Of a stretch of 64,000 nucleotides of DNA, positions 26,863 to 52,821 are shown one piece after another. Both the position numbers and the translations under genes were made by a program. This DNA comes from Halobacteria archaeon HArc-gm2 (GTDB taxonomy: Archaea; Halobacteriota; Halobacteria; Halobacteriales; Haloarculaceae): the NCBI GenBank assembly GCA_025517465.1, contig JAOPKE010000002.1, positions 310,001-374,000 of the forward strand, in the 5' to 3' direction. The notes under the pieces were generated by a model that saw only the letters and a list, made by a program, of their open reading frames with translations, searched no databases and was not told where the DNA came from. The stretch's first letter is position 1; each line of letters begins with the position of its first letter.

Positions 26863-28463
26863 CCGTCGCCGTTCCCGGTAGCACTACTGCCACCCACACC
26901 ACCGCCACCGTCGCCGACGTCGCGGACCCGGAAGACGACGACGCCCTCGTTCTCGAACACCGGCTCGTACCGCTCGCGATGGGCGAGCGACCGGTCGAGC
27001 GTGCCGAAGTTCGCCTGGTCGAAGCCGCGGACGGTGTAGTGGCCCTTCGGGACGTAGAGGTAGTCCGGCTCCTGTTCGACGCTGGCGGTCCACCGTTCCA
27101 CGCAGCCGGCCGACTGGCACGTCGACGCGTTCACGTACGTGCCGAGGTGGCGCTCGTAGGTGGCCGGCTCGCGCCACTCCATCCCCCACGGGCCGAGGAG
27201 GATGGTCCGGTCGGCCACCACCGGGAACCACTCTGCCGCGTCGCCGAGCACGACGAACGTGGCATCCGGCGACGTCTCGGTGCCGGCCCACTCCATCGCC
27301 GCGACGTCCGCGTCGTCGACGAACGCCGGCGTCGTGTCGCCCGTCCGCTCGTCGAACTCGTAGCCGACGGCACCGACACCGGCCGTCGCGACGACGACGA
27401 GCGCGACCATCGCCAGTTCCCGTCGGTGCTCCCTGACTGTCGGCGACCACGAGCTACCCCTGTCGACGAGGACGACCGCCGCGCCGACGAACGCGAACGC
27501 GCCCACGGTGTAGGCGAAGCGGGGCTGTTTGAACAGGAACTCGGCGGCGAGGAGCCAGACTCCGATCACTCGCCAGCCGCCGAGGACGGCGACGGCGCCA
27601 GCGGCGAGGACGAGGAGGGACCACGTCGAGACGCCCGACAGCGCCGCGAACAGGCCGCCGCCGACGCCGCCGTGGGTCCCCGCGGCGGACGTGAACACGT
27701 CGAACCCGAACCGCGAGGCGACGGTCAGCCACCACGGGGCGGTGAGGACGAGGCCGCCGACGCCGACGACGGCGCCGTCGAGGAGGCCGGGCACGGAGCG
27801 GTCGTAGCCCGCCCAGAACACGAGGTAGGTCACGACGACGAACAGCGCGTACGTCGGATGAGTCAGCAGGACGAGCGCGAACAGCGGGAGTCCGACTGCC
27901 ACCCACTCCCGGTCGCGGTCGCGGAAGATCCGGAGGGCGGCGTACGCACCCGAGAGCGCGAGCAGGAATGCCGGCGCGCGGACGAGTCCGCCAGCGCTGA
28001 CGTGCCACTCCAGGACCTGCGGGTTCACCGTGACGAGGATTGCTGCGGCCGCCCCCCGGGGACGGCCGTCGAGCAGGTCCCTGCCCAGCAGGTAGGCGGG
28101 GACGAGGGCGAGGACGACGACCAGCGGCGGGACGAACCGTGCCGCTGCGAACGCGCCGGCCCCCAGGTCCCGCAGGACGGCGAGCGCGTAGAACGCCAGC
28201 GGCGGGTAGGCGAAGGGGACGCCCTCGGCGGTGTAGTGGGGTATCGTCTCCGGCAGTCCGTAGCCCGCCGCGCGTATCTCGTCGGCCGTGAGCGTGTACA
28301 GTCCCGCCCCGTAGGCGGGGTACTGGTTGAGCGCGAGGTAGAGGCCCGCGACGACCAGGCCCACGAGCAGCGCGCCGCCGAGCCAGGGGCGGTCCCGCCG
28401 GTCGAGGGGGACCTGCAGTCGATGGAACCGGTCGGCCGAGCGGGTGAACAGGCGGTAGCTCAT
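26859..28463 (-). CDS. GT-C type membrane glycosyltransferase
   Basis: 534 residues from ATG 28463. About eleven membrane helices in residues 30-385, then an extracytoplasmic C-terminal domain (about 390-534). The first outer loop holds the acidic motif (TADEIRAAGY) and PFAYPPLAFY, typical of GT-C enzymes that use polyprenyl-phosphate sugars (PMT/ArnT/AglB-like fold). The substrate is unknown; surface glycolipids, S-layer glycans or pili are candidates. Its ATG overlaps the stop of the ASST-like gene (ATGA), so the two are co-translated. The tail is a glycine/serine-rich stretch. Confidence 0.82.
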   Translation of the reverse strand: MSYRLFTRSADRFHRLQVPLDRRDRPWLGGALLVGLVVAGLYLALNQYPAYGAGLYTLTADEIRAAGYGLPETIPHYTAEGVPFAYPPLAFYALAVLRDLGAGAFAAARFVPPLVVVLALVPAYLLGRDLLDGRPRGAAAAILVTVNPQVLEWHVSAGGLVRAPAFLLALSGAYAALRIFRDRDREWVAVGLPLFALVLLTHPTYALFVVVTYLVFWAGYDRSVPGLLDGAVVGVGGLVLTAPWWLTVASRFGFDVFTSAAGTHGGVGGGLFAALSGVSTWSLLVLAAGAVAVLGGWRVIGVWLLAAEFLFKQPRFAYTVGAFAFVGAAVVLVDRGSSWSPTVREHRRELAMVALVVVATAGVGAVGYEFDERTGDTTPAFVDDADVAAMEWAGTETSPDATFVVLGDAAEWFPVVADRTILLGPWGMEWREPATYERHLGTYVNASTCQSAGCVERWTASVEQEPDYLYVPKGHYTVRGFDQANFGTLDRSLAHRERYEPVFENEGVVVFRVRDVGDGGGGVGGSSATGNGDG

Positions 28464-29854
28464 CGGCGGCGGACGTCGAGTGGTGACTGGAGGTCGACCT
28501 GCAGGTCGGCCCGGCGCCACTCGTGGCGCGCCCAGAGCGGGACGGCCACGAGCAGACCCACCGCGGCCACGATCTGGAGGGGACCGACCCATGAGGGGAG
28601 CAGGTAGATGATTCCGTTGACGACCGGCTTCGGCAACAGGTCGAGGACCGACTGGGACGCCTGCTCGGTCCCGGAGTCGGCGGACGGTTCGCGGCTCGTC
28701 AGGTCCAGACTGGCGGCGCTCTCGCCGCCCGCGCTCTCGTCGCCGGTCCCCAGGCGTTCGGCCTCGTACGGGAAGCCGACGTCGACGCTCCAGACGACGC
28801 TCCCGTTGGGGGCGACTTCGATCACTCGATTCCCGTTGGAGTCGGTGACGAGCGTGTTGCCGTTCGGCAGTCGGTCGGCGTCGCGGGGCCACTGGAGGCG
28901 GCGGTCTTCCCAGGACCAGGACTGCTCCCAGTCACCGTCTTCGCGCTGGTACTCCACGACGCGGCCGTTCTCCGAGTCGGCGACGACGACGGCTGGCCCG
29001 CCCCGCTCGGCGGGGACGAAGTCGGGGTTGTGCTGTTCGTATATCGTGTCGTAGTCGTCCTCGCTCCCGAGGGTCCACTCGTCCATGAGCCCCTGTTCCA
29101 TATCGACGAAGACGACCTGGTCCTGGTTGCGCAGGCTGATCATGACGACGTCGCGGCCGTCGATTTCGACGAGTTCGACGTCGTTCAGGTGCGTCCAGTC
29201 CTCGGGGTAGGGGCCGCCGCTGTCGGTGTCGAAGTCGGCCTGGGCGTCCCACTCCCACTCGACGAGCTGGGTCGTCGTGTTGACGACGTAGGCGCGGTCG
29301 CGGTCGATGTCGGCGACGAGGAGTCGGTGCTCGTCGATCCGGTCGACGTCGTGCCACCGGGTCGAGTGCTTTCCGGGCGTGATCCGGCTGTAGACGTCGG
29401 TCACGTCGCCGGTGGTGAGGTTGACGCGCTCGACGCCGTTGCGCGTACAGACCGTCTCTGCGTCGCACTCGTCGGCGTCGAGGTGGTCGGCGTAGACGTA
29501 CTCCACGGTCGCGTCGGTTCCGGCGACGGGGTCGACGTCCCAGTAACGCGTGTGTGAGTTGTTGTGGTAGTAGATACTCCCGTCGGGGGCGAGGGCGACC
29601 AGTTCCGCGCGCTCGCGGGGACCGGACCCCTCGTCGGTGACGAACGCCGTCGAGTCCGTCGCGATGACGGTGATGTTCTCGCGGGGTTCGACGATCGGGT
29701 CGCGGTCCCCGGTTTCGAAGGCGCGTTCGAGGCTCGATTCGTCGCGGAGCTCGTCGCCGGTGACCTGGGGCGCCGCGTAACTCACCAGGAGCGTCGCCGC
29801 GAAGACAACGGAGACGACGGCGAAGACCAGTCTGACCCTGTCGGAACCGACCAT
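28460..29854 (-). CDS. Membrane-anchored arylsulfotransferase (ASST)-like beta-propeller
   Basis: 464 residues. The N-terminal helix (about 8-28) and a C-terminal helix (about 425-447) anchor an external domain of around 370 residues. Repeated blade motifs (GRDVVMISLRNQDQVVFVD, ENGRVVEYQREDGDWEQSWSW, LPNGNTLVTDSNGNRVIEV) are those of ASST-type propellers. Characterised ASSTs move sulfate between phenols without PAPS; catalytic use here is not proven because the key His/Arg set could not be checked. First gene of a two-gene unit with the glycosyltransferase; sulfated surface glycans or glycolipids, which haloarchaea do make, are a reasonable guess. Confidence 0.8.
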   Translation of the reverse strand: MVGSDRVRLVFAVVSVVFAATLLVSYAAPQVTGDELRDESSLERAFETGDRDPIVEPRENITVIATDSTAFVTDEGSGPRERAELVALAPDGSIYYHNNSHTRYWDVDPVAGTDATVEYVYADHLDADECDAETVCTRNGVERVNLTTGDVTDVYSRITPGKHSTRWHDVDRIDEHRLLVADIDRDRAYVVNTTTQLVEWEWDAQADFDTDSGGPYPEDWTHLNDVELVEIDGRDVVMISLRNQDQVVFVDMEQGLMDEWTLGSEDDYDTIYEQHNPDFVPAERGGPAVVVADSENGRVVEYQREDGDWEQSWSWEDRRLQWPRDADRLPNGNTLVTDSNGNRVIEVAPNGSVVWSVDVGFPYEAERLGTGDESAGGESAASLDLTSREPSADSGTEQASQSVLDLLPKPVVNGIIYLLPSWVGPLQIVAAVGLLVAVPLWARHEWRRADLQVDLQSPLDVRRR

Positions 29855-30745: not shown

Positions 30746-31720
30746 ATGCCAGAGAACGACACCCTCAGAACGGTCGGCACGGAACGCGGATTCGACGTCG
30801 GTGCGGCGGTGAGCGCCGCGCCGCTCCGGAGCGACCCCGGCTACAAGAAGACGCTCCGGCGGGAGTTCAACACCATCACCGCCGAGAACGCGCTGAAGAT
30901 GGGGCCGCTGCGGCCGTCGCGACACACCTACGACTTCCACGACGCCGACGCGGTCGTCGACTTCGGCCGGGCCAACGACATGCGGGTCAGGGCGCACACG
31001 CTCGTCTGGCACAACCAGACACCCGAGTGGTTCCAGGAGTGGGACTACACGGACGACCAGCTCGAGGCGTTCCTGCGGGACCACGTCCACACCGTCGCGG
31101 GCCGGTACCGGGACAAAGTCGACACCTGGGATGTCGTCAACGAGGCCGTCGCCGACGACGGCTCGATGCGCGAGACGGTGTGGTACGAAGCGATGGGCGA
31201 GGAGTACCTGGACAAGGCGTTCCGGTGGGCGAGCGAGGTCACCGACGCCGACCTGTTCTACAACGACTACGGCGCCGACGGGGTCAACGAGAAGTCCGAC
31301 GCTATCTACGACCTCCTGGAGCGGTTGCTGGACCGGGGCGTCCCCATCGACGGCGTCGGCCTCCAGATGCACGCCCTCCACGAGAAGCCCGACCCCGAGT
31401 CCGTCGCCGAGAACATCCGCCGATTCCAGGACCTGGGGCTCGACGTCGAGATTACGGAGATGGACGTCGCGTACCTCCCCGAGGACGACCCCGGCGACGA
31501 GGCCGCGCGCCACGAGTTGCAGGCCGAGTTCTACCGCGACATCGTCGAGGTCTGCCAGGAGACCGGCTGTGACACCGTCGTCGTCTGGGGCGTCCGGGAC
31601 TCGGACTCGTGGATCCCGACGTGGTTCGGCGATCTCACGGACGACCCGCTGCTGTTCGACGCCGGCAACGACCCGAAACCAGCCTACGACGCGGTCAAAG
31701 AAGCGCTCGCGAACGACTGA
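30746..31720 (+). CDS. Endo-1,4-beta-xylanase, GH10, cytoplasmic
   Basis: 324 residues, a complete GH10 barrel with no signal peptide. Acid/base E133 is in WDVVNEAV, nucleophile E238 in EITEMDV; NALKMG and HTLVWHNQTPEWF carry the usual substrate-binding residues. Without a leader it should cut xylo-oligosaccharides that have already been imported, which fits the family-5 binding proteins and the DppBCDF-type importer downstream. It is convergent with the XacA-type dehydrogenase. GH10 also covers some beta-1,3/1,4 activities, but xylan is the common substrate. Confidence 0.93.
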   Translation: MPENDTLRTVGTERGFDVGAAVSAAPLRSDPGYKKTLRREFNTITAENALKMGPLRPSRHTYDFHDADAVVDFGRANDMRVRAHTLVWHNQTPEWFQEWDYTDDQLEAFLRDHVHTVAGRYRDKVDTWDVVNEAVADDGSMRETVWYEAMGEEYLDKAFRWASEVTDADLFYNDYGADGVNEKSDAIYDLLERLLDRGVPIDGVGLQMHALHEKPDPESVAENIRRFQDLGLDVEITEMDVAYLPEDDPGDEAARHELQAEFYRDIVEVCQETGCDTVVVWGVRDSDSWIPTWFGDLTDDPLLFDAGNDPKPAYDAVKEALAND

Positions 31721-31756: not shown

Positions 31757-32824
31757 CTACAGATCGACGCGGCGACCCTCGTCGCTGGATTCGTAGACGG
31801 CCTCCGTCACGCGCAGGTCGAAGTGGCCGTGGCGGCCGTCCGGCCCGATGTCTCGGTCGCCGAGCACGGCCGTCGCGAAGAAGTCGAACTCTTCGACCAT
31901 CTCCGGGGGTTCGGTCACGTCGACCGTCGTCTCGCCGTGGTCGCGCGCGATGGTGATCCGACGGTCGGCGTCGACGTCGAACACCGGGTCGACAGTGATG
32001 CGTCCGTCGGTCCCGACGATGGTCATGTGGTTCGCGCCGCTCGCGCCGTAACTCGCGGTACACTGCGCCGTGACGTCGTCGGGGAACTCCAGCGTGAAGC
32101 TGACGTGCTCGTCGACGCCGTCGAATTCGGGCGGGTTCTCGATTGCAGTCGCGTGGACCGCCACCGGGTCGGCGTCGAGGACGAACCGAGCGGTGTTCAG
32201 CGGGTAGACGCCGACGTCCATCAGCGCGCCGCCGCCCGCCAGGTCCGGGTCGAGTCGCCACTGGTCCGGGTCGCCGCCGCCGGCGAGCATGTTGAAGGAG
32301 AACTCGCCGGCGAACTGGACGGGGTCACCGATCACGCCCGCGTCGATCTGGTCGCGGACCCACCGGACCGACCGCGTCGTCTGCATGCGGTAGGCCGTCA
32401 TCAGGCGGACCCCGGCCTCTTCGCAGACATCGACGACGCGTTCGGCGCGCTCGGCGGTCGCCTCCAGGGGTTTCTCGCAGAGGACGTCCTTGCCGAGAGT
32501 CGCCGCCGTCTCCACGTGCGGGAGGTGGAGCGCGTTCGGCGTGACGACGTAGACGGCGTCGTATGCCTCGGCGTGCTCCCCGTCGGCGTACTCCTCGTAG
32601 GTGAGCGCGGCGTCGAGTCCGCGTTCCTCGGCCACCGACGAGGCCTTTTCGGCGGATCCGCTGACGACCGCCGTCGCTTCACAGTAGTCTGAATCTTCGA
32701 TGGCCGGGAGGGCGACGTCCCGGCCGAACCAGCCGAGCCCGACGACGGCGAACCGCAGCGGTCCGCCGTCGACGGCTCGCTCCCAGTCTCGGTCGGCGAA
32801 TCGCGTCGGGATTTCCAGATTCAT
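31757..32824 (-). CDS. xacA: Gfo/Idh/MocA dehydrogenase, probable D-xylose 1-dehydrogenase (XacA type)
   Basis: 355 residues from ATG 32824, preferred over an upstream in-frame start because a TATA-like ctatttg on the minus strand is about 28 bases before it. The Rossmann loop is VGLGWFG (28-34), the conserved lysine is K118 in CEKPL, and the active-site helix GGGALMDVGVYPLN has D203 and Y207. The N-terminal segment before the Rossmann fold (ADRDWERA) also resembles haloarchaeal xylose dehydrogenases, which oxidise xylose or arabinose with NADP. Placement beside two GH10 genes supports xylose. The specific substrate is inferred. Confidence 0.8.
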   Translation of the reverse strand: MNLEIPTRFADRDWERAVDGGPLRFAVVGLGWFGRDVALPAIEDSDYCEATAVVSGSAEKASSVAEERGLDAALTYEEYADGEHAEAYDAVYVVTPNALHLPHVETAATLGKDVLCEKPLEATAERAERVVDVCEEAGVRLMTAYRMQTTRSVRWVRDQIDAGVIGDPVQFAGEFSFNMLAGGGDPDQWRLDPDLAGGGALMDVGVYPLNTARFVLDADPVAVHATAIENPPEFDGVDEHVSFTLEFPDDVTAQCTASYGASGANHMTIVGTDGRITVDPVFDVDADRRITIARDHGETTVDVTEPPEMVEEFDFFATAVLGDRDIGPDGRHGHFDLRVTEAVYESSDEGRRVDL

Positions 32825-32973
32825 GCACGGTCCTTTACGGTCCTCCCTCAAATAGTGCGCTGATACGGCTACTACCGTCGCGCTCGGACCGGAGACGAGT
32901 CGTCGCGGAACGGCGGGAGAGTGATCCGTCGCCCACCGTCCGACCTCGTCTTTCCTGACGATCGTTGTTCTAC

Positions 32974-33360: not shown

Positions 33361-33502
33361 GGGGTCTAGTAGGATCCGGTACTGTTCTACTTGTCCTCGA
33401 ATTCGTTCTCGTAGGTGGAATATCGAAGGTGTGGGGTCGCCAGGTCGTGGCCACCGACCGGCGGTGCGCGCGTCGACCGGGCCGTCTGTGACGGTGACCA
33501 CA

Positions 33503-33511
33503 GTTATTTAC
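33503..33511 (+). promoter_or_regulatory. TATA box of the GH4 gene
   Basis: gttatttac is centred 29 bases before GTG 33536 and decides in favour of that GTG as start. Confidence 0.6.
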
Positions 33512-33535
33512 TCTCCCGGTCGCCATCGAACGGAC

Positions 33536-34993
33536 GTGACAATCGAGTCTTTCGACGCAGACGGCGGTCTGGACGGTGACGACCTCACGATCGCGTACGT
33601 CGGGGGCGGGAGCCGGCAGTGGGCCCCCAACCTGATCCGCGACCTGGCGCTCTCCGAGTTCGACGGACACGTTCGGCTGTACGACACGAACGAAGAGAGC
33701 GCCCGGCTCAACGCAGAGTTCGGGAACTGGGTTCAGGCAGACGACGACGCCACCGCCGACTGGAGTTACGAGGCGGTCAGCTCGCTGGAGACGGCGCTCG
33801 CCGGCGCCGACGTCGTGATCCTCTCGACCCAGTACGACCCGCGGGAGACGTTCGTCCACGACCTGTCCATTCCCAGGGAGTACGGCATCTACGGGGCCGT
33901 GTCGGCGACGATCGGTCCAGGCGGCATCTTCCGGGCGATGCGGACCATCCCGGTGTACCGGCGCTTCGCAGCTGCGATCCGCGAGCACTGCCCCGACGCC
34001 TGGGTGTTCAACTACACCAACCCAGTTCACTTCGTCACGCGCGCGTTGTACGACGAGTATCCCGACATCAACGCGCTCGGGCTCTGCCACGAGGTACTCG
34101 GGACGCGGTGGCACCTCGCCATGCTCGCCGAGGAGGAACTCGGGATGGACGCGGAGCGCGCCGACGTCGACGTGAACGTCAAGGGGATCAACCACTTCAC
34201 GTGGGTCGACGAGGCCCGCTGCAAGGGCGTCGACCTCTGGCCGCTGCTCGAGGAATTGAAAGACGGCGAACGCGGAAACAGACGGTTCACCTGGGAAGAC
34301 CTGGCAGACGAGAGCGTCTTCACCGACAACTGGCAGGTCACCTGGGAGCTGTTCCGCCGGTTCGGCGTTCTGCCCGCGGCGGGCGACCGTCACCTCGTCG
34401 AGTACGCCACCTCGTTCATCCAGGGCGGCCAGGAGACGCTCAACCACTGGGGCGTCAAGCGCACCGGTGCCGACTACCGGGCGAAACACTGGACGCCGGC
34501 CGAGTCCGACCAGACCACGGACGTCGAGGCCTGGCTGGAGGGCGAGAAGGAGTTCGAACTCGAACCCTCCGGCGAGGAGTTCCTCGACATCCTGGAGGGG
34601 CTCACCGGCGACGGCCCGTACGTCACGAACGTCAACCTGCCCAACACCGGCCAGATCTCGGATATCGAGCAGGGTCCGGTCGTCGAGACGAACGCCGTCG
34701 TCCGCGCGGGCCAGGTCAAGCCAGTCGCCGCCGGCGGCTTCCCGCGACCTGTCCGGAGTCTGCTCCAGGGCCACGTCGACACCATCGAGACGATCATCGA
34801 GGCCGCACGGGAGGGGGACGTCGACAGGGCGTTCGAAGGCTTCTCGATCGACTCCCAGGTCCAGACGCTGACGCCAGACGAATCGCGTGATCTGTTCGGC
34901 GAACTCGTCGCCGCCGAGGCCGACTACCTGGCGGACTGGGACCTCGGGGAGTCGGACGTGCTCGCCGAGGCCGAGACGTACCCCCGGGCCTGA
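33536..34993 (+). CDS. GH4-family glycosidase (NAD- and metal-dependent)
   Basis: 485 residues from GTG 33536. GH4 enzymes cleave alpha- or beta-glycosides by an NAD-linked redox mechanism with a Mn/Ni/Co ion. The Rossmann loop is YVGGGSRQW (21-29); NYTNP (159-163) and C184-H185-E186-V187 carry the metal-binding Cys, and H220 in GINHFTW is the other metal ligand. The CHEV tetrapeptide is the form described for alpha-glucosidases, whereas alpha-glucuronidases usually have CHG. The genomic setting (xylanases, UxuA elsewhere) would favour alpha-glucuronidase, so specificity is undecided. Cytoplasmic. Confidence 0.88.
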   Translation: MTIESFDADGGLDGDDLTIAYVGGGSRQWAPNLIRDLALSEFDGHVRLYDTNEESARLNAEFGNWVQADDDATADWSYEAVSSLETALAGADVVILSTQYDPRETFVHDLSIPREYGIYGAVSATIGPGGIFRAMRTIPVYRRFAAAIREHCPDAWVFNYTNPVHFVTRALYDEYPDINALGLCHEVLGTRWHLAMLAEEELGMDAERADVDVNVKGINHFTWVDEARCKGVDLWPLLEELKDGERGNRRFTWEDLADESVFTDNWQVTWELFRRFGVLPAAGDRHLVEYATSFIQGGQETLNHWGVKRTGADYRAKHWTPAESDQTTDVEAWLEGEKEFELEPSGEEFLDILEGLTGDGPYVTNVNLPNTGQISDIEQGPVVETNAVVRAGQVKPVAAGGFPRPVRSLLQGHVDTIETIIEAAREGDVDRAFEGFSIDSQVQTLTPDESRDLFGELVAAEADYLADWDLGESDVLAEAETYPRA

Positions 34994-35186: not shown

Positions 35187-37319
35187 ATGACAAACGAACG
35201 CGCGGACATCGGCAGCGACCGACGGACGTTCATCGGTTCGCTCGCGGCGCTGGGCGCACTCGGCGCCCTGCCGGGAGCGGCCAGGGTGGGCGCTGCACAG
35301 GAAGACGACTCGATCGACGGCTACTATCAGACGCTTCGACAGATCCTCACCCAGTTCCGGGGCCTCCCCGAGGGTGAGTTCGTCTACGAACCGGACGAGC
35401 AGGTGACCATCGAGACCTTCGACAACGTCGGCCCAGGGGGGAGCAGCTCGTCGACGTTCACCGTGGACGACGTGAACGTTCCCTTCACGCAGGCCGAACG
35501 CGTCGAGATCAACGAGGACCCGGAGAACAACTGGACGTACTCCTACCAGGGGATCATCCCCGACGGCCAGTTCGAGGCCGGCGACGTGCTCCTGGGCGTG
35601 GCTCACGTCCGGAGCGAGACCAGCGACGCTCAGATACAGGCCGGGTTCAAGTACCGCTACGAGAACTCCGGCGGCGAGACGGCCTACGGGGACGAGAACT
35701 TCGTCGCGGAAGGGGCGTTGATCGAGCCGACCGGGTCCTGGGAACGATACTACTTCCCCATCGAGGTCGGCGAGAAGCCCGAGGGGTCGAACCACGAGCC
35801 GTACATGGAGTTCTGGACCGGCTTCACGCAACAGAACCTCGATTTCGGTGGGCTCGCGCTCATCGACTACAGCGCCACGGACGTCGCCGTCGGCGACCTT
35901 CCCGTCGGCCAGCACTCGCACCCCATCTTCGACTACGACGGTCGGTCCGAGGGTGCCACGTGGCGCGAAGACGCGTACGCGCGCATCGAGGAACTCCGGA
36001 AGGCGTCGCTGGACGTCTCCGTCGTCGACGCCGACGGGAACCCGCTCCCCGGGGCGAGCGTCGACGTCGCGATGCAGGACCACGAGTTCGACTTCGGCAG
36101 CGCCGTCTCCGTCGAGCACATCACCGGTGACGGCGACGACGACGACGTGTACCGCGCTCGGTTCCTGGAGAACTTCAACAAGGCCGTCGTCGAGAACGGG
36201 ATGAAGTGGCCGGCCTGGGGCGGCGACTGGGACATCGACAAGGAGGCCACCAGACAGGCCGTCCAGTGGCTGAACGACAAGGAGATTCCGACGCGCGGGC
36301 ACTACCTGGTATGGGAGGAGTACGGCGGCGCCAACGGTGGCGGGATGGACGTCAGCGAGGGCCTCTCGGATAGCGAGTTGCAGGACGAGATCCTCTCCAA
36401 GATCGAGAGCCACACCGCCGAGTTCGAGGGGCAGGTCACAGACTGGGACATGCACAACCACCCGATGTGGCAGAGCAACATCCGTGACCGTCTCGGCTGG
36501 GACGCGGCCCTCGAGTGGTGGTCGACCGCAGCCGAGGCGACCGACGCCGGCCTCTACACCAACGAGATGGGCAACGTCGCGGGTGACTTCCTCCGCGACC
36601 AGCACCTCGAGTTCGTCCAGCGCCTGGTCGACGAGGGCGCGCCCGTCGACGGCGTCGGCTTCATGGGCCACGTCCAGTTCTCCAACGGCAACGTGACCCC
36701 GCCCAAGGAGGTGCTCTCGACGTTCGACCAGTTCGGGGAGCTGGATCTGCCGATCCTCATCACGGAGTTCGACATCCAGATCGACAGTCGCGACGACCAG
36801 CGACAGGTCGACTGGCAGGCGGACTACCTCAGGGACTTCCTGATCGCCTGCTTCAGCCACGAGGCCGTCGAGGGCCTCGTGAACTGGGGCTTCTGGGCCG
36901 GCGACCACTGGCGGCCGACCGGTGCCCTCTTCGACTCGAACTGGGGGCTCCGACCCCACGGTGAGCAGTTCATGAATCTGGTCTTCGACGAGTGGTGGAC
37001 CGAGAACAGCGGCGAGACGAACGACCAGGGCGTGTACTCCTCCTGGGCGTTCAAAGGCGAGTACGAGGTCACCGCAAGCTACGAGGGCGCGGATGCGTCG
37101 ACGACGGCGACGCTCTCGGACGGCGGGACGACGGTCGAACTGTCGCTCGACGCCGAGCAGTCGACGGCGACAGCGGAGAGCGGGTCGGACGCCGACGCCG
37201 ACACCGAGACGGAGTCGACGTCGGCCGTCGGCCCCGGTCTGGGCGTGGGCTCGGCAGTGGCGGGCGCCGGTGCGCTCGCGGGCTACAAGCTGACGCGCGA
37301 CGACGACGACGAAGCGTAG
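35187..37319 (+). CDS. Secreted CBM + GH10-like protein with altered catalytic motif
   Basis: 710 residues. A Tat signal (SDRRTFIGSLAALGALG, about 10-35) leads to a beta-sandwich carbohydrate-binding module (about 70-235, CBM4/9/22-like), a GH10-type barrel (about 260-605), an acidic Ser/Thr linker and a C-terminal VGPGLGVGSA helix with charged tail, like PGF-CTERM anchors. The barrel nucleophile E527 is kept (LITEFDI), but the acid/base position in WDMHNH is H425 instead of Glu, and the usual LVWH block reads LVWEEY. It may therefore be a binding protein, a glycosidase with another acid, or act on a different glucan. The probable first step of external polysaccharide use. Confidence 0.88.
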   Translation: MTNERADIGSDRRTFIGSLAALGALGALPGAARVGAAQEDDSIDGYYQTLRQILTQFRGLPEGEFVYEPDEQVTIETFDNVGPGGSSSSTFTVDDVNVPFTQAERVEINEDPENNWTYSYQGIIPDGQFEAGDVLLGVAHVRSETSDAQIQAGFKYRYENSGGETAYGDENFVAEGALIEPTGSWERYYFPIEVGEKPEGSNHEPYMEFWTGFTQQNLDFGGLALIDYSATDVAVGDLPVGQHSHPIFDYDGRSEGATWREDAYARIEELRKASLDVSVVDADGNPLPGASVDVAMQDHEFDFGSAVSVEHITGDGDDDDVYRARFLENFNKAVVENGMKWPAWGGDWDIDKEATRQAVQWLNDKEIPTRGHYLVWEEYGGANGGGMDVSEGLSDSELQDEILSKIESHTAEFEGQVTDWDMHNHPMWQSNIRDRLGWDAALEWWSTAAEATDAGLYTNEMGNVAGDFLRDQHLEFVQRLVDEGAPVDGVGFMGHVQFSNGNVTPPKEVLSTFDQFGELDLPILITEFDIQIDSRDDQRQVDWQADYLRDFLIACFSHEAVEGLVNWGFWAGDHWRPTGALFDSNWGLRPHGEQFMNLVFDEWWTENSGETNDQGVYSSWAFKGEYEVTASYEGADASTTATLSDGGTTVELSLDAEQSTATAESGSDADADTETESTSAVGPGLGVGSAVAGAGALAGYKLTRDDDDEA

Positions 37320-38189: not shown

Positions 38190-40328
38190 ATGCGGGAAAC
38201 TGACAATAACCGCGAGAAGTTGTCGCGACGACGGTACGCGCAACTGGTAGCTGGATCGAGTGCGGCAGCACTGGCCGGCTGTCCGGAGTCGGGGTCCGAG
38301 GGAACCGAGACGGAACCCGCCACGAGCGAATCGGACACTGACGAGTCGACGACCACGGACGGGGACTCGACGCCCGATCCGAGCAACCGGATGACCGACA
38401 CCGTCCGCGTGTTCGTGTTGAACACGCCGGACACCTTCGACTGGAATCCCCACACGCCACAGGACAACACCACTGGCGACCTGTTCATGTCCGAACTGCA
38501 CGGCATGTCGAACTCCCACGATACGTCGAAGCGCCTCCACGGCGACGACGCGACGTTCGACGCGCCGTGGGTCCAGGGGAAAGACGAGATCAGCCTCGTC
38601 ACCTGGATCAAGGACTGGGAGGTCGAACCGCCCTACGACCTGTGGAACACCCACGACGAGCGCTCCACGTTCTGGAACGGCGAGCCCAACGACGCCGAGA
38701 CCCGGTACAAGTACGACAAGGTGCGCTACTTCGTCGAGGGCAACAAGTTCCAGGAGGGCCAGATCCACCGTGCCGAGGCCGAGAGCCAGTGGCGCTACCA
38801 CTTCTGGCACGCCAGAGCCGAGGTCGAGGGCGCGGACGACGACCCGGCGAACGAACCGCTGCTCGCCGACGAGGCGGCGGCGACCGACGGCGACCCGCCG
38901 CTCCCGCAGGAGTGGAGCGACCCGAAGCTACGGGAGTTCGACGCCGCCGGGACCCAGGAGCGGTACAACGAGGTCATCAGCAACGTCCGCGGCGACCGCG
39001 TCTCGCTCGAACGGCTGGCCGAGAACGGCTGGGGGACGGGCCCGTACGAACTCCGCTCGACCGACGACATCGGCTCCGACCGCGCCATCCTCCGGCTCCG
39101 CGACGAGGACGCCGAGTCGCCACATCCCCACCGCGAGCACATCAACATCCCCAAACTCCAGCTCCAGTTCGGTAACGAGGACCGTGAGCAGACGCTGGCG
39201 AACAACGGCGCCATCGACGTCCACGCCGGGTCCATCACGCCCAACAACACCTGGAATCCGGAGAGCCTCCCGGACCACGTCGACAACGTCACCACCTATC
39301 TGCGCCCGAACGGCGGCGACTCGTGGTGGTTCAACTGGAACAACCCGCACCTCGGACGGCTGTGGGTCCGACGGGCGCTCGTCACGGCCATCGACTGGAA
39401 CGTCGTGGGCGCGAACGGCTGGGGCGACCAGCGCTCCGTCCCGCTCGAACACGACACCGGAATGCTCGACGCCCACTCCGAGTCGACGTTCTCCGAGGAG
39501 TTCCTGAACAGCCTCCACTCCTGGCCGAAGGAGGCCGACGTCGAGACCGCCAACGAGTACATGAAGCGGGCGGGCTACACGAAGAACGGCAACATCTGGG
39601 TCGACCCCGACGGCAACGACTTCAAGCTCGACGTCCTCATCACCTCGAACATCGAGGACTGGATCGGTGCCGGCCAGACCATCCGGCAGCAACTCCGCAA
39701 CTTCGGCGTGGACGCGACGTTCACCCAGCAGGACTGGGGGACGTGGTCGAACAACCTGGACACGTTCAACAACGAAGAGCCGAACTTCGACACCTCGATC
39801 CACTGGTACAACCAGCCGACCCGCTTCGGCTACTACAAGTCCCAGGCCGCGTGGTGGGACAACGCGTCGCTGCTCGGCGGCGACCCCAACGCTACCGGGT
39901 CGGACCGCCGCGCCGTCGACCCCGACGACGAGTTCACCATCAAGGGCGAAGTCGTGCAGGCCCATCTGCCGACCAAGGTGGGCTCAATCGAGGCCCCCGA
40001 CCAGGCCGGGCAGCAGCCCGACCTCGAGGGCGTCACCGACTACGAGGAGGTGAACATGGCCGAAGTGGTCGAGAACATCCGGAAGCCCGCCGATTCGGAA
40101 GAAGAGCTCCAGGAGCGCTTCCGGACGTGTGCCCGGTACTACAACTACTACGTGCCGAAGTTCGCGTTCCACCAGTACACCTACGGCGAGTGGGCGAACG
40201 TCCGCGACTTCGACTGGCCCGGGGAGGACGACGACGCCCTGGACTGGGAGCGGAGCTTCAACATCACGGACACCGTCACGCTGGGCGGTATCGCCCAGGC
40301 CAGCTACGACTCCGAGATGGACCGCTGA
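38190..40328 (+). CDS. Family-5 solute-binding lipoprotein, probable oligosaccharide receptor
   Basis: 712 residues, long for the family. SRRRYAQLV plus AALAGC (lipid Cys31) form a Tat lipobox, followed by an acidic Ser/Thr spacer (about 32-68). The fold is in the normal order: FDWNPHTP at the start, GPYELRS, WVRRALVTAIDW, YMKRAGYTKNG, then the C-terminal lobe (DFKLDVLITSN, ANVRDFDWPGED). Peptide- and oligosaccharide-binding members cannot be told apart by family alone; xylanase neighbours and the importer at 48504 favour xylo- or gluco-oligosaccharides. It is a paralogue of the receptor at 40451 (shared W-x-N-x-R-D-F block near the end). Confidence 0.9.
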   Translation: MRETDNNREKLSRRRYAQLVAGSSAAALAGCPESGSEGTETEPATSESDTDESTTTDGDSTPDPSNRMTDTVRVFVLNTPDTFDWNPHTPQDNTTGDLFMSELHGMSNSHDTSKRLHGDDATFDAPWVQGKDEISLVTWIKDWEVEPPYDLWNTHDERSTFWNGEPNDAETRYKYDKVRYFVEGNKFQEGQIHRAEAESQWRYHFWHARAEVEGADDDPANEPLLADEAAATDGDPPLPQEWSDPKLREFDAAGTQERYNEVISNVRGDRVSLERLAENGWGTGPYELRSTDDIGSDRAILRLRDEDAESPHPHREHINIPKLQLQFGNEDREQTLANNGAIDVHAGSITPNNTWNPESLPDHVDNVTTYLRPNGGDSWWFNWNNPHLGRLWVRRALVTAIDWNVVGANGWGDQRSVPLEHDTGMLDAHSESTFSEEFLNSLHSWPKEADVETANEYMKRAGYTKNGNIWVDPDGNDFKLDVLITSNIEDWIGAGQTIRQQLRNFGVDATFTQQDWGTWSNNLDTFNNEEPNFDTSIHWYNQPTRFGYYKSQAAWWDNASLLGGDPNATGSDRRAVDPDDEFTIKGEVVQAHLPTKVGSIEAPDQAGQQPDLEGVTDYEEVNMAEVVENIRKPADSEEELQERFRTCARYYNYYVPKFAFHQYTYGEWANVRDFDWPGEDDDALDWERSFNITDTVTLGGIAQASYDSEMDR

Positions 40329-48302: not shown

Positions 48303-48460
48303 ACCGGGCGAACCGATCAGGGCGAGCGGTCGCCGGGGCCGAACTCGCTGTCGTCGAACGCGACGGTGACGACCCGACCGTCACTGCACGGACGCGAGGG
48401 TGGTGGGGACCGATCCATTCGTCCGCCCAGCGGACGGTCCGTCCCGCGATTGCTCATCAT

Positions 48461-48500
48461 TGTTGACGGAAGATATAAGGGGTGCTGGGTTGCGTCAACA
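48461..48500 (+). promoter_or_regulatory. TATA box enclosed by an 8-bp dyad, importer operon
   Basis: TGTTGACG (48461-48468) and CGTCAACA (48493-48500) are exact reverse complements. The TATA box agatataagg (48471-48480) and the expected transcription start lie between them, 29 bases before ATG 48504. A bound dimer or loop here would block transcription of the whole transporter operon. Confidence 0.6.
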
Positions 48501-48503
48501 TAC

Positions 48504-49523
48504 ATGCGATACTATGTCAGACGCATAGCGCAGTCAGTGTTTACCTTGTTGTCGGGACTGTTCCTGACCTACGCCCTGTATCGCCTCATCCCGGGGAGTC
48601 CGCTGAAGGCGATCATGGCCAACCTCATCGCCCAACAGCAACGCAGGGGGGAGGTAGACACCGAACAGGTCGCGAGGATGGCCGAGCAGATGACGGGGAT
48701 CAACCCGGACGAACCGATCATCGTCGGATTCTTCAACTACGTCAGCGGGATCGTCTTGCGCGGGGACTTCGGGACCTCGATCCTCTACCAGGACCCGGTG
48801 TTCGACATCCTCTTCCGGGCGATGCCGTGGTCCATCTTCCTCAGCGTCTACGGCATCATGCTCGGGTTCACAGCGAGTATCCTCGTCGGCGTGCTGATGG
48901 CCTGGCACGAGGGCTCGAAGCTCGACTCCGGGCTGACGGTGCTGGTCCTCTCGGTGAACGCCATCCCGTACTACGTCGGCGCGATCGTCATGCTCTCGCT
49001 GCTGGCGTTCCAGTGGGGACTGTTCCCGACCGGCGGTCGGGCGCCGCGGGCAGTCGCGCCGGGATTCAACGTCCAGTTCATGCTGGGTATCCTCCATCAC
49101 GGGGCGTTACCGATCCTGTCCACGTTCCTCCTCGGGTTCGGCGCGGGTTCGCTCGGGATGCGGGCTAACACCGTCCGCATCGTCGGCTCCGACTACCTCC
49201 GGTCGGCGCGCCTGCGGGGGGTGAGCAGCAACCGCATCCTCACCCGATACCTGACCCGGAACGCGATACTGCCGCTGTACACGGGACTGGTCGTGGGAAT
49301 CGGCGCGCTGTTCGCGTCGAACGTCATCACGGAGTACATCTTCCAGTACCAGGGCGCCGGGTGGTTCCTGTTCGAGTCCGTGGTCAATCAGGACTACCCG
49401 CTGATCATGGGGTCGTTCCTCTTCTTCGGCACCGTGACGGTGCTCGGCATCCTGCTCGCCGACCTCACGTACGGCCTCATCGACCCGCGTGCGGAAACCG
49501 GCGCAACGAGGGATACCTTCTAA
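48504..49523 (+). CDS. ABC importer permease, DppB type
   Basis: 339 residues, six membrane helices. The start is typical of DppB/OppB permeases (MRYYVRRIAQSVFTLLSGLF), with the DEPIIVGFFNYVSGIVLRGDFG block and, near residue 240, the EAA-like loop LRSARLRGVSSNRILTRYLTRN (cut: LRSARLRGVSS is the part contacting the ATPase). First gene of a four-gene operon and placed right after the dyad-flanked promoter. Substrate: peptides or, more likely here, oligosaccharides imported for the cytoplasmic xylanase. Confidence 0.92.
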   Translation: MRYYVRRIAQSVFTLLSGLFLTYALYRLIPGSPLKAIMANLIAQQQRRGEVDTEQVARMAEQMTGINPDEPIIVGFFNYVSGIVLRGDFGTSILYQDPVFDILFRAMPWSIFLSVYGIMLGFTASILVGVLMAWHEGSKLDSGLTVLVLSVNAIPYYVGAIVMLSLLAFQWGLFPTGGRAPRAVAPGFNVQFMLGILHHGALPILSTFLLGFGAGSLGMRANTVRIVGSDYLRSARLRGVSSNRILTRYLTRNAILPLYTGLVVGIGALFASNVITEYIFQYQGAGWFLFESVVNQDYPLIMGSFLFFGTVTVLGILLADLTYGLIDPRAETGATRDTF

Positions 49524-49524
49524 C

Positions 49525-50541
49525 ATGTCACGAGACGACCTCGAGACGGACGGCGGCGTCACGCAGGAGAGCATCTTCGGAACCGGTGAGGACGAGCGGC
49601 GCAGTCGGTCCTCGCCGAAGGAACGCTTCGGCAGGGGGTTCGACTCCTACGTGCGAACGCCCTTCCGGATCGCCTGGAACGACTGGCGGACCCGCATCGG
49701 CGGCATCGGCATCCTGATCTACCTCCTGATGGGCACGGTCGGCGTCATCATCGTACCAGCGCCGACGCTGAACGAGGGGCCGCGCTACCTCCAGCCGTTC
49801 CAGGACTGGACGATTCCGTTCGGCACCGACAACCTCGGTCGCGGCATCTTCAAACAGCTCATTCACTCGACGCCCGCAATGTTGAAGATGGCGCTGGCCG
49901 GCCTCGTCTTCGCCGTCGGTGTCGCCATCCTCTTCGGCATGATCGCCGGCTACAAGGGCGGCGTCATCGACACCGTGCTGATGACCATCACGGACATCTT
50001 CTTCGTGATCCCGGGGCTCCCGCTCATCATCGTCCTGTCGGCCATCTTCACGCCGCGGGACCCCTTCATCGTCGGCGCCATCCTCTCCATCTCCGTCTGG
50101 CCCCGGCTCGCCAGGGAGTTACGCTCGCAGGTCCTCTCGTTACGGACGGAGGACTACGTCGAGGCCTCACGCTCGATGGGGCTGTCGACGCCGACCATCA
50201 TCGGCCAGGAACTCATGCCGAAGCTCGCCCCCTACATCCTCATCCGCGGGTCGGGGTCCGCGGTGCGGATCATCAGGGACTCGGTCGCGCTGTACTTCCT
50301 GGGCATCCTGCCCTTCAGCACGACCAACTGGGGCATCATGATGCAGTTCGCCTACAGCCAGGGGAACGCAATCTCGACGCCGAGTCACCTCTACTGGCTG
50401 GTCGTTCCCCTCGTCGCGCTGGCGGGGATGGGCTTTTCACTGATCCTGTTTTCGCAGGGCCTCGACCGGGTGTTCAACCCGCGACTCCGGGCCCGGAACA
50501 CGGAACACGGTGCCGACGAAGACGGGACAGGGGTGATGTGA
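49525..50541 (+). CDS. ABC importer permease, DppC type
   Basis: 338 residues, one base after the dppB-like stop. A hydrophilic N-terminal arm of about 55 residues, then a first helix (IGGIGILIYLLMGTVGVIIV), a long external loop with the DppC-like FGTDNLGRGIF, and five more helices. The cytoplasmic EAA loop reads YVEASRSMGLSTPTIIGQEL. Pairs with the 48504 product to form the channel. Same operon. Confidence 0.92.
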   Translation: MSRDDLETDGGVTQESIFGTGEDERRSRSSPKERFGRGFDSYVRTPFRIAWNDWRTRIGGIGILIYLLMGTVGVIIVPAPTLNEGPRYLQPFQDWTIPFGTDNLGRGIFKQLIHSTPAMLKMALAGLVFAVGVAILFGMIAGYKGGVIDTVLMTITDIFFVIPGLPLIIVLSAIFTPRDPFIVGAILSISVWPRLARELRSQVLSLRTEDYVEASRSMGLSTPTIIGQELMPKLAPYILIRGSGSAVRIIRDSVALYFLGILPFSTTNWGIMMQFAYSQGNAISTPSHLYWLVVPLVALAGMGFSLILFSQGLDRVFNPRLRARNTEHGADEDGTGVM

Positions 50542-50542
50542 G

Positions 50543-51670
50543 ATGGCGATAGACCAGCCGGGAACGACCGGCACGCCCGACGCAGACGAGGACGAACCGG
50601 AAGATATCGTCATGTCGGTCCGCGACGCGCGGGTGTCCTTCGACATGGCCCGCGGGCAGGCGTGGGTGCTCAACGACGTCGACCTCGACGTCCGGCGCAA
50701 CGAGATTCTCGCCGTCGTCGGCGAGTCCGGGTCGGGCAAGTCGATGTTCGCCTCGGCGCTGCTCGACGCCGTCGAGGACCCCGGCGTGCTCGCCGGTGAC
50801 GTCACCTACTACCCGGACGAGGCGGCCGGGGAGAGCCAGACCATCGGCTCGTTCGACCAGGGACTCGACGACTCCGTGGACGTGCTGGACCTGGACTCGG
50901 ACGAACTGCAGGCGTTCCGGTGGGAGAAGGTCTCGATGGTGTTCCAGGGGGCGATGAACTCGTTCAACCCCACGATGAAGATCAAGGCTCACTTCCACGA
51001 GACCATCCAGGCCCACAACGCGGTCCTCGAGGAGCGGATGGACCACGTCCGGAAGCTCTTCGACGCGCTGTACATCGACTTCGACCGCGTGATGACGTCC
51101 TACCCCCACGAACTCTCCGGCGGGATCAAACAGCGGACGCTGATCGCGCTGGCGCTGGTGCTGGAACCCGAGGTGCTCGTGATGGACGAGCCCACCGCCG
51201 CGCTCGACCTGTTGATGCAGCGCTCTATCATCTCGATGCTGCGCAACCTCCGCGACGAGTTCGACCTCACCATCGTGTTCATCACGCACGACCTGCCGCT
51301 GGTCGGCGGCCTCGCGGACCGCATCGCCGTGATGTACGCCTTCGAGTTCGTAGAGGTCGGCGCGACGCGGGACCTCATGAAGAACGCCGCCCATCCGTAC
51401 ACCCGTTCGCTGTTGCGGTCGGTGCCGAGCATCAACTCGGACGTCGACGAGATGGAACCGATCGAGGGGGCGCGGCCGGACCCGGTCAACATCCCGACCG
51501 GCTGTTCGTTCCACCCGCGCTGTCCCGTCGCCGACGACCGCTGTGAGATCGAGGACCCGGACCTGGCCGCCGTCGAGGACGACCTCCAGGCGGCGTGTTT
51601 CTACACCGACCAGGCGCGCGAGAAGATCGACTACACGCTGGAAGACGAATCCACGGAGGACGACAGATGA
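50543..51670 (+). CDS. ABC importer ATPase, DppD type
   Basis: 375 residues. Walker A GESGSGKS (60-67), Q-loop in MVFQGAMNSFNP, signature LSGGIKQR, Walker B VLVMDEPT with AALD, and switch His in FITHDLPL. About 45 residues (EAAGESQTIGSFDQGLDDSVDV) are inserted between Walker A and the Q-loop, longer than usual. The C-terminal oligopeptide/dipeptide domain carries the four-cysteine pattern (GCSFHPRCPVADDRC and AACF) that in relatives can bind an Fe-S cluster. ATGA overlap with the next ATPase. Confidence 0.93.
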   Translation: MAIDQPGTTGTPDADEDEPEDIVMSVRDARVSFDMARGQAWVLNDVDLDVRRNEILAVVGESGSGKSMFASALLDAVEDPGVLAGDVTYYPDEAAGESQTIGSFDQGLDDSVDVLDLDSDELQAFRWEKVSMVFQGAMNSFNPTMKIKAHFHETIQAHNAVLEERMDHVRKLFDALYIDFDRVMTSYPHELSGGIKQRTLIALALVLEPEVLVMDEPTAALDLLMQRSIISMLRNLRDEFDLTIVFITHDLPLVGGLADRIAVMYAFEFVEVGATRDLMKNAAHPYTRSLLRSVPSINSDVDEMEPIEGARPDPVNIPTGCSFHPRCPVADDRCEIEDPDLAAVEDDLQAACFYTDQAREKIDYTLEDESTEDDR

Positions 51671-52821
51671 GCACCGACGACGCGACCGACGGGGAACAGC
51701 ACGACGAGGAAGCCGAGCACGCCGACGAACCCCTCCTCTCGCTTTCGGACGTCGAGGTCCACTACGATACGGGGACCGGCATCGAGCGCTACCTCAGCGA
51801 CAAGCGCGTGAAGGCCGTCGACGGGGTGGACCTCGAACTCGAGGAGAACGACATCGTCGTGCTGGTCGGCGAGTCGGGGTGTGGGAAGACGACGCTCGGG
51901 AAGTCCGCTGTCGGGCTCGAACGGCCGACTGGTGGCTCCGTGAAGTACCGCGGCCAGGACATCTGGGAGGCCAAGGACCACCCCAGAGGGGCCGACATCG
52001 AGTTCCGGGAGATCCGCCGGGCGATGCAGATCATCCACCAGGACCCGGCGAACGCGCTCAACGCCTCGCGTCGGGTGCGGGCCATCCTGTCCGACCCGCT
52101 GAAGAAGTACCGGACGGAACTCGGCCCGCAGGAACGCGAGGAGACGATCTACCGCTACCTGGAGTACGTGGACATGACGCCGGCGGAGGACTACGCCGAC
52201 CGGTACCCCCACCAGCTCTCGGGCGGCGAGAAACAGCGCATCACGCTCGGGCGCGCGCTGTTGATGAACCCGGACGTCATCCTGGCCGACGAGGCGATCA
52301 GCGCGCTGGACGTCTCCCTGCGCGTCGAGATGATGGACCTCATCCTCGACCTGCAGGAGACGTTCGACACCTCCTACGTCTTCATCTCGCACGACCTGGC
52401 GAACGCCCGCTACCTGGCCAAGCGGGCCGGCGGCCGGATCGCCATCATGTACCTCGGCAACATCGTCGAGATCGGCGGTCCGGACGAGGTGATCCAGAAC
52501 CCGAGCCATCCCTACACGGAGGTACTCCGGTGGTCGACGCCCTCGATGGACCCGGACGTCGCGATGGAACGGATCAAGGAGAAACCGCCCGTGCGTCAGA
52601 TCGACGTTCCCGACCCGCAGGACCCGCCGTCGGGCTGTGCGTTCCACCCGCGCTGTACGAAGGCCCGGGAGGCCTGCGCCGAGGGGGCACCGGAACTGTA
52701 CGACGCGGAGGAAACCGAGGCGGCCTGTTTCCGGGCCCTCGACAACCACGAGTACTGGTCGAGTCCGGAACTCGAGGACGCCGAGGGCTCCGGGACGGCG
52801 GAACTCGGCGTCGGCGACTAA
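51667..52821 (+). CDS. ABC importer ATPase, DppF type
   Basis: 384 residues. Walker A GESGCGKTT (around 72-80), Q-loop in QIIHQDPANALN, signature LSGGEKQR, Walker B VILADEAISALD, switch His in FISHDLAN. The C-terminal domain again has the cysteine set CAFHPRCTKAREAC and AACF. With the two permeases and the DppD-like ATPase this completes an importer; binding proteins are supplied in trans by 38190 and 40451. Last gene of the operon. Confidence 0.93.
   Translation: MSTDDATDGEQHDEEAEHADEPLLSLSDVEVHYDTGTGIERYLSDKRVKAVDGVDLELEENDIVVLVGESGCGKTTLGKSAVGLERPTGGSVKYRGQDIWEAKDHPRGADIEFREIRRAMQIIHQDPANALNASRRVRAILSDPLKKYRTELGPQEREETIYRYLEYVDMTPAEDYADRYPHQLSGGEKQRITLGRALLMNPDVILADEAISALDVSLRVEMMDLILDLQETFDTSYVFISHDLANARYLAKRAGGRIAIMYLGNIVEIGGPDEVIQNPSHPYTEVLRWSTPSMDPDVAMERIKEKPPVRQIDVPDPQDPPSGCAFHPRCTKAREACAEGAPELYDAEETEAACFRALDNHEYWSSPELEDAEGSGTAELGVGD

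Follow-up and report, generated by a model that had tools for sequence, protein, structure and literature searches.

Coupled substitutions accompany histidine at the acid/base position of a group of GH10-derived proteins, a candidate secreted xylan depolymerase of haloarchaea

Can a GH10 barrel function when histidine stands in place of its acid/base glutamate? To our knowledge, this glutamate is a textbook constant of GH10. The gene that raises the question lies at positions 35187–37319 (+ strand) of the window, by which we mean the whole 64,000-nucleotide stretch analysed here, from Halobacteria archaeon HArc-gm2 (contig JAOPKE010000002.1). It encodes a 710-aa protein that an earlier note, made from the sequence alone, had described as a secreted GH10-like protein with a Tat signal, a CBM and a surface-anchor tail.

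The protein consists, in order, of a Tat-type signal, a CBM4/22-like domain, a GH10-fold domain with histidine at the acid/base position, a short C-terminal beta domain and an anchor-like tail. By our by-eye reading of the translation, the signal region (35187–35297, +; SDRRTFIGSLAALGALGALPGAARVGAA) contains the twin-Arg signal SDRRTFIG, and its Arg-Arg pair is also present in relatives. The N-terminal beta-sandwich (aa 43–248; 35313–35930, +) had no Pfam match, and the CBM it was said to be is recognisable only as CBM4/CBM22-like, from its model: when this domain was modelled alone (AF2 pLDDT 84.4), CBM4-2 and CBM22 modules were the closest among the VIA matches listed, the best being CBM4-2 4bj0 (Z 13.3, rmsd 2.6, 144 aligned). 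The barrel region (aa 297–588; 36075–36950, +) passed the GH10 profile PF00331 with 109.6 bits against a cut-off of 22.1. In the whole-protein AF2 model (mean pLDDT 80.6, barrel blocks mostly >90) it forms the GH10 (beta/alpha)8 barrel, which among the VIA matches listed superposes best on XynA 7d88, with Z 40.3, rmsd 2.5 and 356 aligned residues; these lists span part of each model, and the absence of a family from them excludes nothing. The tail (37227–37316, +), which terminates in GPGLGVGSAVAGAGALAGYKLTR and had no family match in profile searches, is anchor-like by eye only.

We then compared the active site with that of XynA from Bacillus sp. KW1 (7d88/7d89), the nearest solved structure (phmmer 3.1e-44). 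The acid/base E182 of XynA aligned to His425 (codon CAC; 36459–36461, +), in a block reading W420-D-M-H423-N424-H425-P, confirming that histidine occupies the position at the end of beta4 where GH10 has its acid/base Glu. The nucleophile is kept, as had been proposed: Glu527 (codon GAG; 36765–36767, +), on beta7 in the block T-E527-F-D529, aligned to E280 of XynA, and the positions mutated in the XynA double mutant E182A/E280A (7d89) align to His425 and Glu527. XynA thus has the barrel, the nucleophile and an LFWE block in common with the window protein, but differs in its normal acid/base Glu182, its normal Gln and the lack of the His. The -1 subsite set of Lys, Asn, Gln and Trp, listed for GH10 in the accessible part of PMC8874783 and matched here by residue order, is incomplete: Lys340, Asn424, Trp567 and Trp575 are retained, and Gln is replaced by Met493 (36663–36665, +). 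In the secondary structure of the AF2 model, His425, Glu460 (36564–36566, +) and Met493 lie on beta4, beta5 and beta6, respectively, and because these are three adjoining strands the three positions are probably neighbours in space. Alignment also places the protein, by position only, with glycosidases that have His as acid/base. The only one of these families that it matched above the Pfam cut-off was GH10, and it belongs to neither the GH3 nor the GH117 sequence family. Since the defining acid/base Glu is missing though sequence and fold are those of GH10, we class the window protein as a variant derived from GH10 and not as a GH10 xylanase.

To place His425 among relatives, we built an alignment of 120 distinct GH10 domains, leaving out one interrupted gene (L015), short signal-less GH10s, identical GH10 domains and matches that did not cover the domain (e.g. 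L187); the loci were the best matches per search and further variants may be missed. Residue 425 was His in 31/120 rows and Glu in the other 89. The proposed check, whether the N-H pair is conserved as a clade, did find a conserved group. Position 493 was Met in all 31 His rows and in none of the Glu rows (Gln in 86, Glu in 3), and position 460 was Glu in 31/31 His rows, compared with Asp in 72 and Glu in 17 of the Glu rows; these counts take relatives as independent, and Fisher values from them are not probabilities. Because 31 of 120 distinct relatives have His425, always with Met493 and Glu460, His425 is, judged by this alignment, not a chance substitution. The rest of the site was retained: His372, Asp421, Asn459, His495, Glu527 and Asp529 were present in 31/31 His rows, and Asn337 and Lys340 in 29/31, being lost only in a Halocatena pair. 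Glu527 and His495 (36669–36671, +) were both invariant in the 120 relatives, and we take His495 to be the helper of the nucleophile; in Cex, Gln203 and His205 have assigned roles. Position 461 was mostly Tyr or Phe in the Glu rows and mostly Met, Gly or Leu in the His rows.

Several other candidate features were rejected. The earlier note had read LVWEEY as part of the same change and had pointed to 'E376 or E377' as a substitute carboxylate. The Glu is real, with numbering one too low (the block is L374-V375-W376-E377-E378-Y379), but active XynA has the same Glu beside a normal acid/base residue, and position 377 is Glu in only 17/29 His rows, which rules it out as the replacement acid. The acidic residue that does accompany the histidine is Glu460, in the sole acidic column specific to His rows; neither it nor Met493 had been remarked on before. 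His423 (36453–36455, +) was present in 25/31 His rows and was ruled out as an essential core residue by its absence from L137/L142, L139/L143, L165, L067, L176 and L186; on this alignment it is limited to the main His clade. Loss of Trp341 was discarded as a signature, since Trp is found there in 79/79 Glu rows but also in 4/29 His rows, the window protein included; in the window's short GH10, the equivalent residue is Met.

Individual relatives depart from these patterns. A protein of genome G556 (L165:958-3156) has a natural Ser-His pair for Asn-Glu and no Trp at position 376. Three Glu-type proteins (L063, L046:5991-8099 and L039:2750-4855) have Glu for Gln at position 493, so that a third carboxylate would lie close to the catalytic pair. 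Two others (L025 and L105:11524-14448) read WEVHNE, combining His423 with a normal acid/base residue and with Glu for the usual Asp of WD.

Next, we considered selection and origin. The dN/dS of the GH10 domain was 0.17 between the window gene and its G138 orthologue; a 'full' value of 0.25 is not usable, as it takes in ~60 codons of the stop-to-stop frame before the start. The domain value indicates purifying selection and, together with the invariant residues, rules out decay, in line with the earlier opinion that the protein is not a decayed one. In a tree of 58 rows with the trait columns removed, 25 His rows fell on one side of a branch with support 98/97. Larger trees (91 and 87 rows) needed three changes of the His/Glu label (bootstrap range 2–3). 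AU tests of a single His origin gave p 0.147 (28 His against 63 Glu rows), p 0.097 (27 against 39 rows, without L067 and the far haloarchaeal group) and p 0.025 (25 against 62 rows, without near-duplicates and that group). Two or more origins are therefore favoured on these trees, with a single origin rejected in only one of the three tests. Under the standard code, neither Glu to His nor Gln to Met can be reached with fewer than two base changes, and drift is thus an unlikely source of the paired change.

The His form occurs in haloarchaea and in some bacteria. A search at 1e-20 matched 41 of 391 genomes of the class (window genome included), and the WDxHNHP motif was read in loci of 17 of those 41; three genes of this kind occur in the genome from which the window comes. 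Among the identified carriers are Natrinema zhouii, Saliphagus infecundisoli, Halosimplex carlsbadense, Halosimplex pelagicum, Halocatena pleomorpha, Halobacterium sp. CBA1126, 'Halobonum tyrrellensis', Halomarina oriensis, a Salinarchaeum MAG and a Lentisphaeria MAG. A match on a Halorussus vallis plasmid (47% identity over 92% of the window protein) agrees in its coordinates with L016, in which the WDxHNHP motif was read. More distant His rows came from G417, G583 and G556, in the phylum group of the Lentisphaeria MAG, from G1005, in the phylum of a Bacteroidetes MAG, and, twice, from a Halocatena marina plasmid. In genome G265, a His-type gene (L015) is, as sequenced, broken by one in-frame TGA. 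Two His members come from MAGs named CSSed, presumably for soda-lake sediment; at high pH, a His acting as acid would need a raised pKa.

We also examined the surroundings of the gene. Upstream in the window lie a short, signal-less GH10 (30746–31720, +), a Gfo6-type D-xylose 1-dehydrogenase (31757–32851, -; NF041392, 458 bits against a cut-off of 350) and a GH4 family glycosidase (33431–34993, +; PF02056, PF11975) that is 69% identical to its GH4 counterpart in the H. vallis cluster. The short GH10 has the canonical residue at each corresponding site (Asn132, Glu133, Asp174, Gln207, His209 and Glu238), and thus both catalytic residues, as the earlier note had read. Downstream are an SBP_bac_5 solute-binding protein (38190–40328, +) and ABC transporter genes (48303–52818, +) with homologues in the H. 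vallis xylan cluster at 60–66% identity. The H. vallis plasmid cluster also contains an esterase, a GH2, a xylose dehydrogenase and, further along, an alpha-glucuronidase. Xylose, glucuronate and transport genes thus adjoin the His-type gene, as in a xylan-utilisation cluster. In both the window (52927–54552) and the H. vallis plasmid (L111:7041-8660), a thermosome (Cpn60) subunit gene adjoins the sugar ABC transporter genes. An arylsulfotransferase-like protein (28460–29854, -; PF05935, PF14269) is encoded beside the xylan genes of the window.

Across 19 neighbourhoods (the window, L037–L043, L046, L047, L066, L100–L106 and L108, with L109 extending L103), the short GH10 was found in ten, GH4 in ten, uxuA and/or uxaC in eight and three or more genes from a single ABC transporter set in nine. 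The His-type gene is therefore repeatedly located in glucuronoxylan-use clusters. No xylan-cluster marker genes were found in 6/19 (L039, L040, L042, L105, L106 and L108, with weak ABC ATPase matches in L042), and the two annotated bacterial neighbourhoods showed neither a xylan cluster nor a glucuronoxylan link. At the Halosimplex loci L039 and L046, the His-type gene lies beside canonical GH10 genes. On the Halocatena marina plasmid NZ_CP109982, the two His-type genes (L067:7743-9344 and L186:5905-7254) lie among GH78 rhamnosidase and sulfatase genes, and, from these neighbours, the pair may have as substrate, instead of xylan, a sulfated rhamnose-xylose polymer. The earlier suggestion of a different glycan may therefore hold for these two; for the window protein it does not clearly do so.

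In 8 of 21 His genomes (G159, G319, G353, G035, G383, G207, G121 and G392), the His-type gene was the only GH10 besides the short type, with no GH11, GH30, GH8 or GH5 match. It is thus the only secreted xylanase candidate found in them, a statement that covers GH10, GH11, GH30, GH8 and GH5, with GH43, GH98, GH141 and GH3 not counted; misses are possible in G353 (87% complete) and in G392 (a MAG). Halomarina oriensis, Halorussus vallis and Halobacterium sp. CBA1126 are among the organisms for which this holds. The short GH10 was present in seven of the eight, interrupted in G319 and absent from G035, and its non-secretion is judged by likeness to the short GH10 of the window (52–73% identity where compared, with G392 outside the comparison). 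In G319 it is in two pieces with an internal stop (L086 / G319:C1:1481018-1481638), and the His-type gene is intact.

In the open-access literature searched, we found no naturally occurring GH10 described as having His in place of the acid/base residue; a Ser-His mutant of a xylanase reportedly features in an azidolysis paper of 2018. The closest precedent is a laboratory mutant, the Streptomyces olivaceoviridis E-86 xylanase N127S/E128H (5gqd, 2D20, 2D22, 2D24), in which Glu is changed to His at the same place; among the relevant open-access papers, it was found by name only in a table of PMC5811086. As far as the 5gqd title and that table (2D22) go, xylanases whose acid/base residue was mutated to His still form the covalent glycosyl-enzyme, and N127S/E128H is also listed with xylopentaose bound intact, as a Michaelis complex (2D24, PMC5811086). 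The structure titles mention no substitution of the Gln or of the Asp. Unlike this mutant, the window protein retains Asn424 and combines it with Met493 and Glu460, while the natural L165 has the same Ser-His pair. Because the E128H mutant bound xylopentaose without cleaving it, a His placed by itself into an otherwise canonical site appears to work slowly. Since the engineered enzyme forms the intermediate yet leaves unactivated xylopentaose intact, the changes at 460 and 493 may, by analogy, be what makes the natural site work. In other families, histidine with an acidic partner has been described, in the accessible text, for the GH3 His/Asp enzyme Nag3 phosphorylase, where it replaces a carboxylate acid/base (PMC8950772), and for His302/Asp320 of a GH117 anhydro-galactosidase, where it is the general acid (PMC11574756). 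Nag3 differs from the window protein in family and substrate, and the partner Glu460 is here a proposed one; the GH117 enzyme is inverting, of another family and acts on agar. The canonical secreted GH10s of haloarchaea and Bacteroidota (L024, L025, L048–L057), several of which match the N-terminal domain of the query, are of the same family but have Glu425, with position 493 occupied by Gln or Glu and position 460 mostly by Asp.

From these observations we infer, at roughly even chances, that the window protein is an active extracellular (glucurono)xylan depolymerase in which a contacting His425–Glu460 pair serves as acid/base. Glu527, held by His495, would attack C1 of the -1 xylose as in GH10, giving a covalent xylosyl-enzyme. 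Glu460, on the adjacent strand, would orient His425 and tune its pKa, and His425 would protonate the leaving group and then activate water; Met493 would occupy the space of the Gln found in the canonical -1 subsite. The CBM4/22-like domain and tail would keep the enzyme on xylan and at the cell surface, and products would supply the ABC transporters close by, the short GH10, the GH4 or alpha-glucuronidase, and the breakdown of xylose and glucuronate. Consistent with this reading, Met493 and Glu460 occur in 31/31 His rows with the remaining -1 machinery retained, the His form is the sole secreted GH10-type candidate in 8/21 genomes, and the clusters hold uxaC, uxuA, esterase, GH4, short GH10, xylose dehydrogenase, alpha-glucuronidase and ABC transporter genes. 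The earlier proposal that the protein might use another acid is thus the best-supported one, in the form of His425 with Glu460. Against it, Glu460 also occurs in 17/89 Glu rows, and six of the 19 neighbourhoods and the two annotated bacterial ones lack the xylan-cluster genes sought. Haloarchaea with these clusters could live on oligosaccharides freed by others.

Loss of the acid/base residue is the usual mark of a pseudo-glycosidase, and a barrel that holds the polymer near transporters or other enzymes without acid/base catalysis would fit the CBM-like domain, the anchor-like tail and the Halocatena pair, which also lost the -1 residues Asn337 and Lys340. Yet a lectin has no need for Glu527, His495 and Asp529, which 31/31 His rows retain, and the concerted changes to Met493 and Glu460 look like redesign. 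Moreover, no other extracellular xylan-cutting candidate was found in 8/21 genomes. Binding without cutting, also raised in the earlier note, is therefore possible but not favoured, and we consider such a xylan-binding surface protein rather unlikely. A metal site formed in the old active site by His425, His495, Met493 and Glu527 (with His423 in one clade) would account for the joint presence of His and Met at the centre of the barrel, where neither varies among the His rows. However, His495 and Glu527 are found in 120/120 rows regardless of residue 425, and His423 is absent from 6/31 His rows, making metal chemistry highly improbable.

A neutral His could also let an anion or a sugar, not water, take the covalent intermediate, as in a phosphorylase or a transglycosylase. 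GH3 phosphorylases use a His/Asp pair for that reason, according to the accessible text of PMC8950772, and the engineered GH10 E128H was trapped as the covalent intermediate (5gqd). This is improbable for a protein with a by-eye secretion signal, from which sugar phosphates would be lost outside, and the Met, Gly or Leu at position 461 of most His rows does not suggest a kept acceptor site. Alternatively, His425 might only bind substrate, with protonation coming from Glu460 itself or, in a substrate-assisted manner, from the glucuronate side chain of the substrate. Glu460 is indeed the only acidic residue specific to His rows, and glucuronate genes accompany many members, but Glu460 coexists with a normal Glu425 in 17/89 rows and the two annotated bacterial neighbourhoods show no glucuronoxylan link, leaving protonation from elsewhere decidedly improbable. 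A bolder version of the active reading, which we think unlikely, is that His425-Glu460-Met493 is a second natural GH10 design that arose more than once from the Glu form, cuts decorated xylan by a proton-transfer route undescribed for GH10, possibly with a uronic acid of the substrate or a metal, and is the sole secreted xylanase of several haloarchaea.

A natural set of proteins that lack the acid/base Glu, share two coupled changes and seem to have arisen repeatedly makes His-pair catalysis by a retaining GH10 glycosidase directly testable, and offers a natural counterpart to the engineered E128H mutants. It is also a warning, as annotation pipelines name the His-type proteins endo-1,4-beta-xylanase without checking the catalytic residue. 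If active, these proteins would carry out the initial step by which several haloarchaea use glucuronoxylan; if inactive, those haloarchaea would need another explanation.
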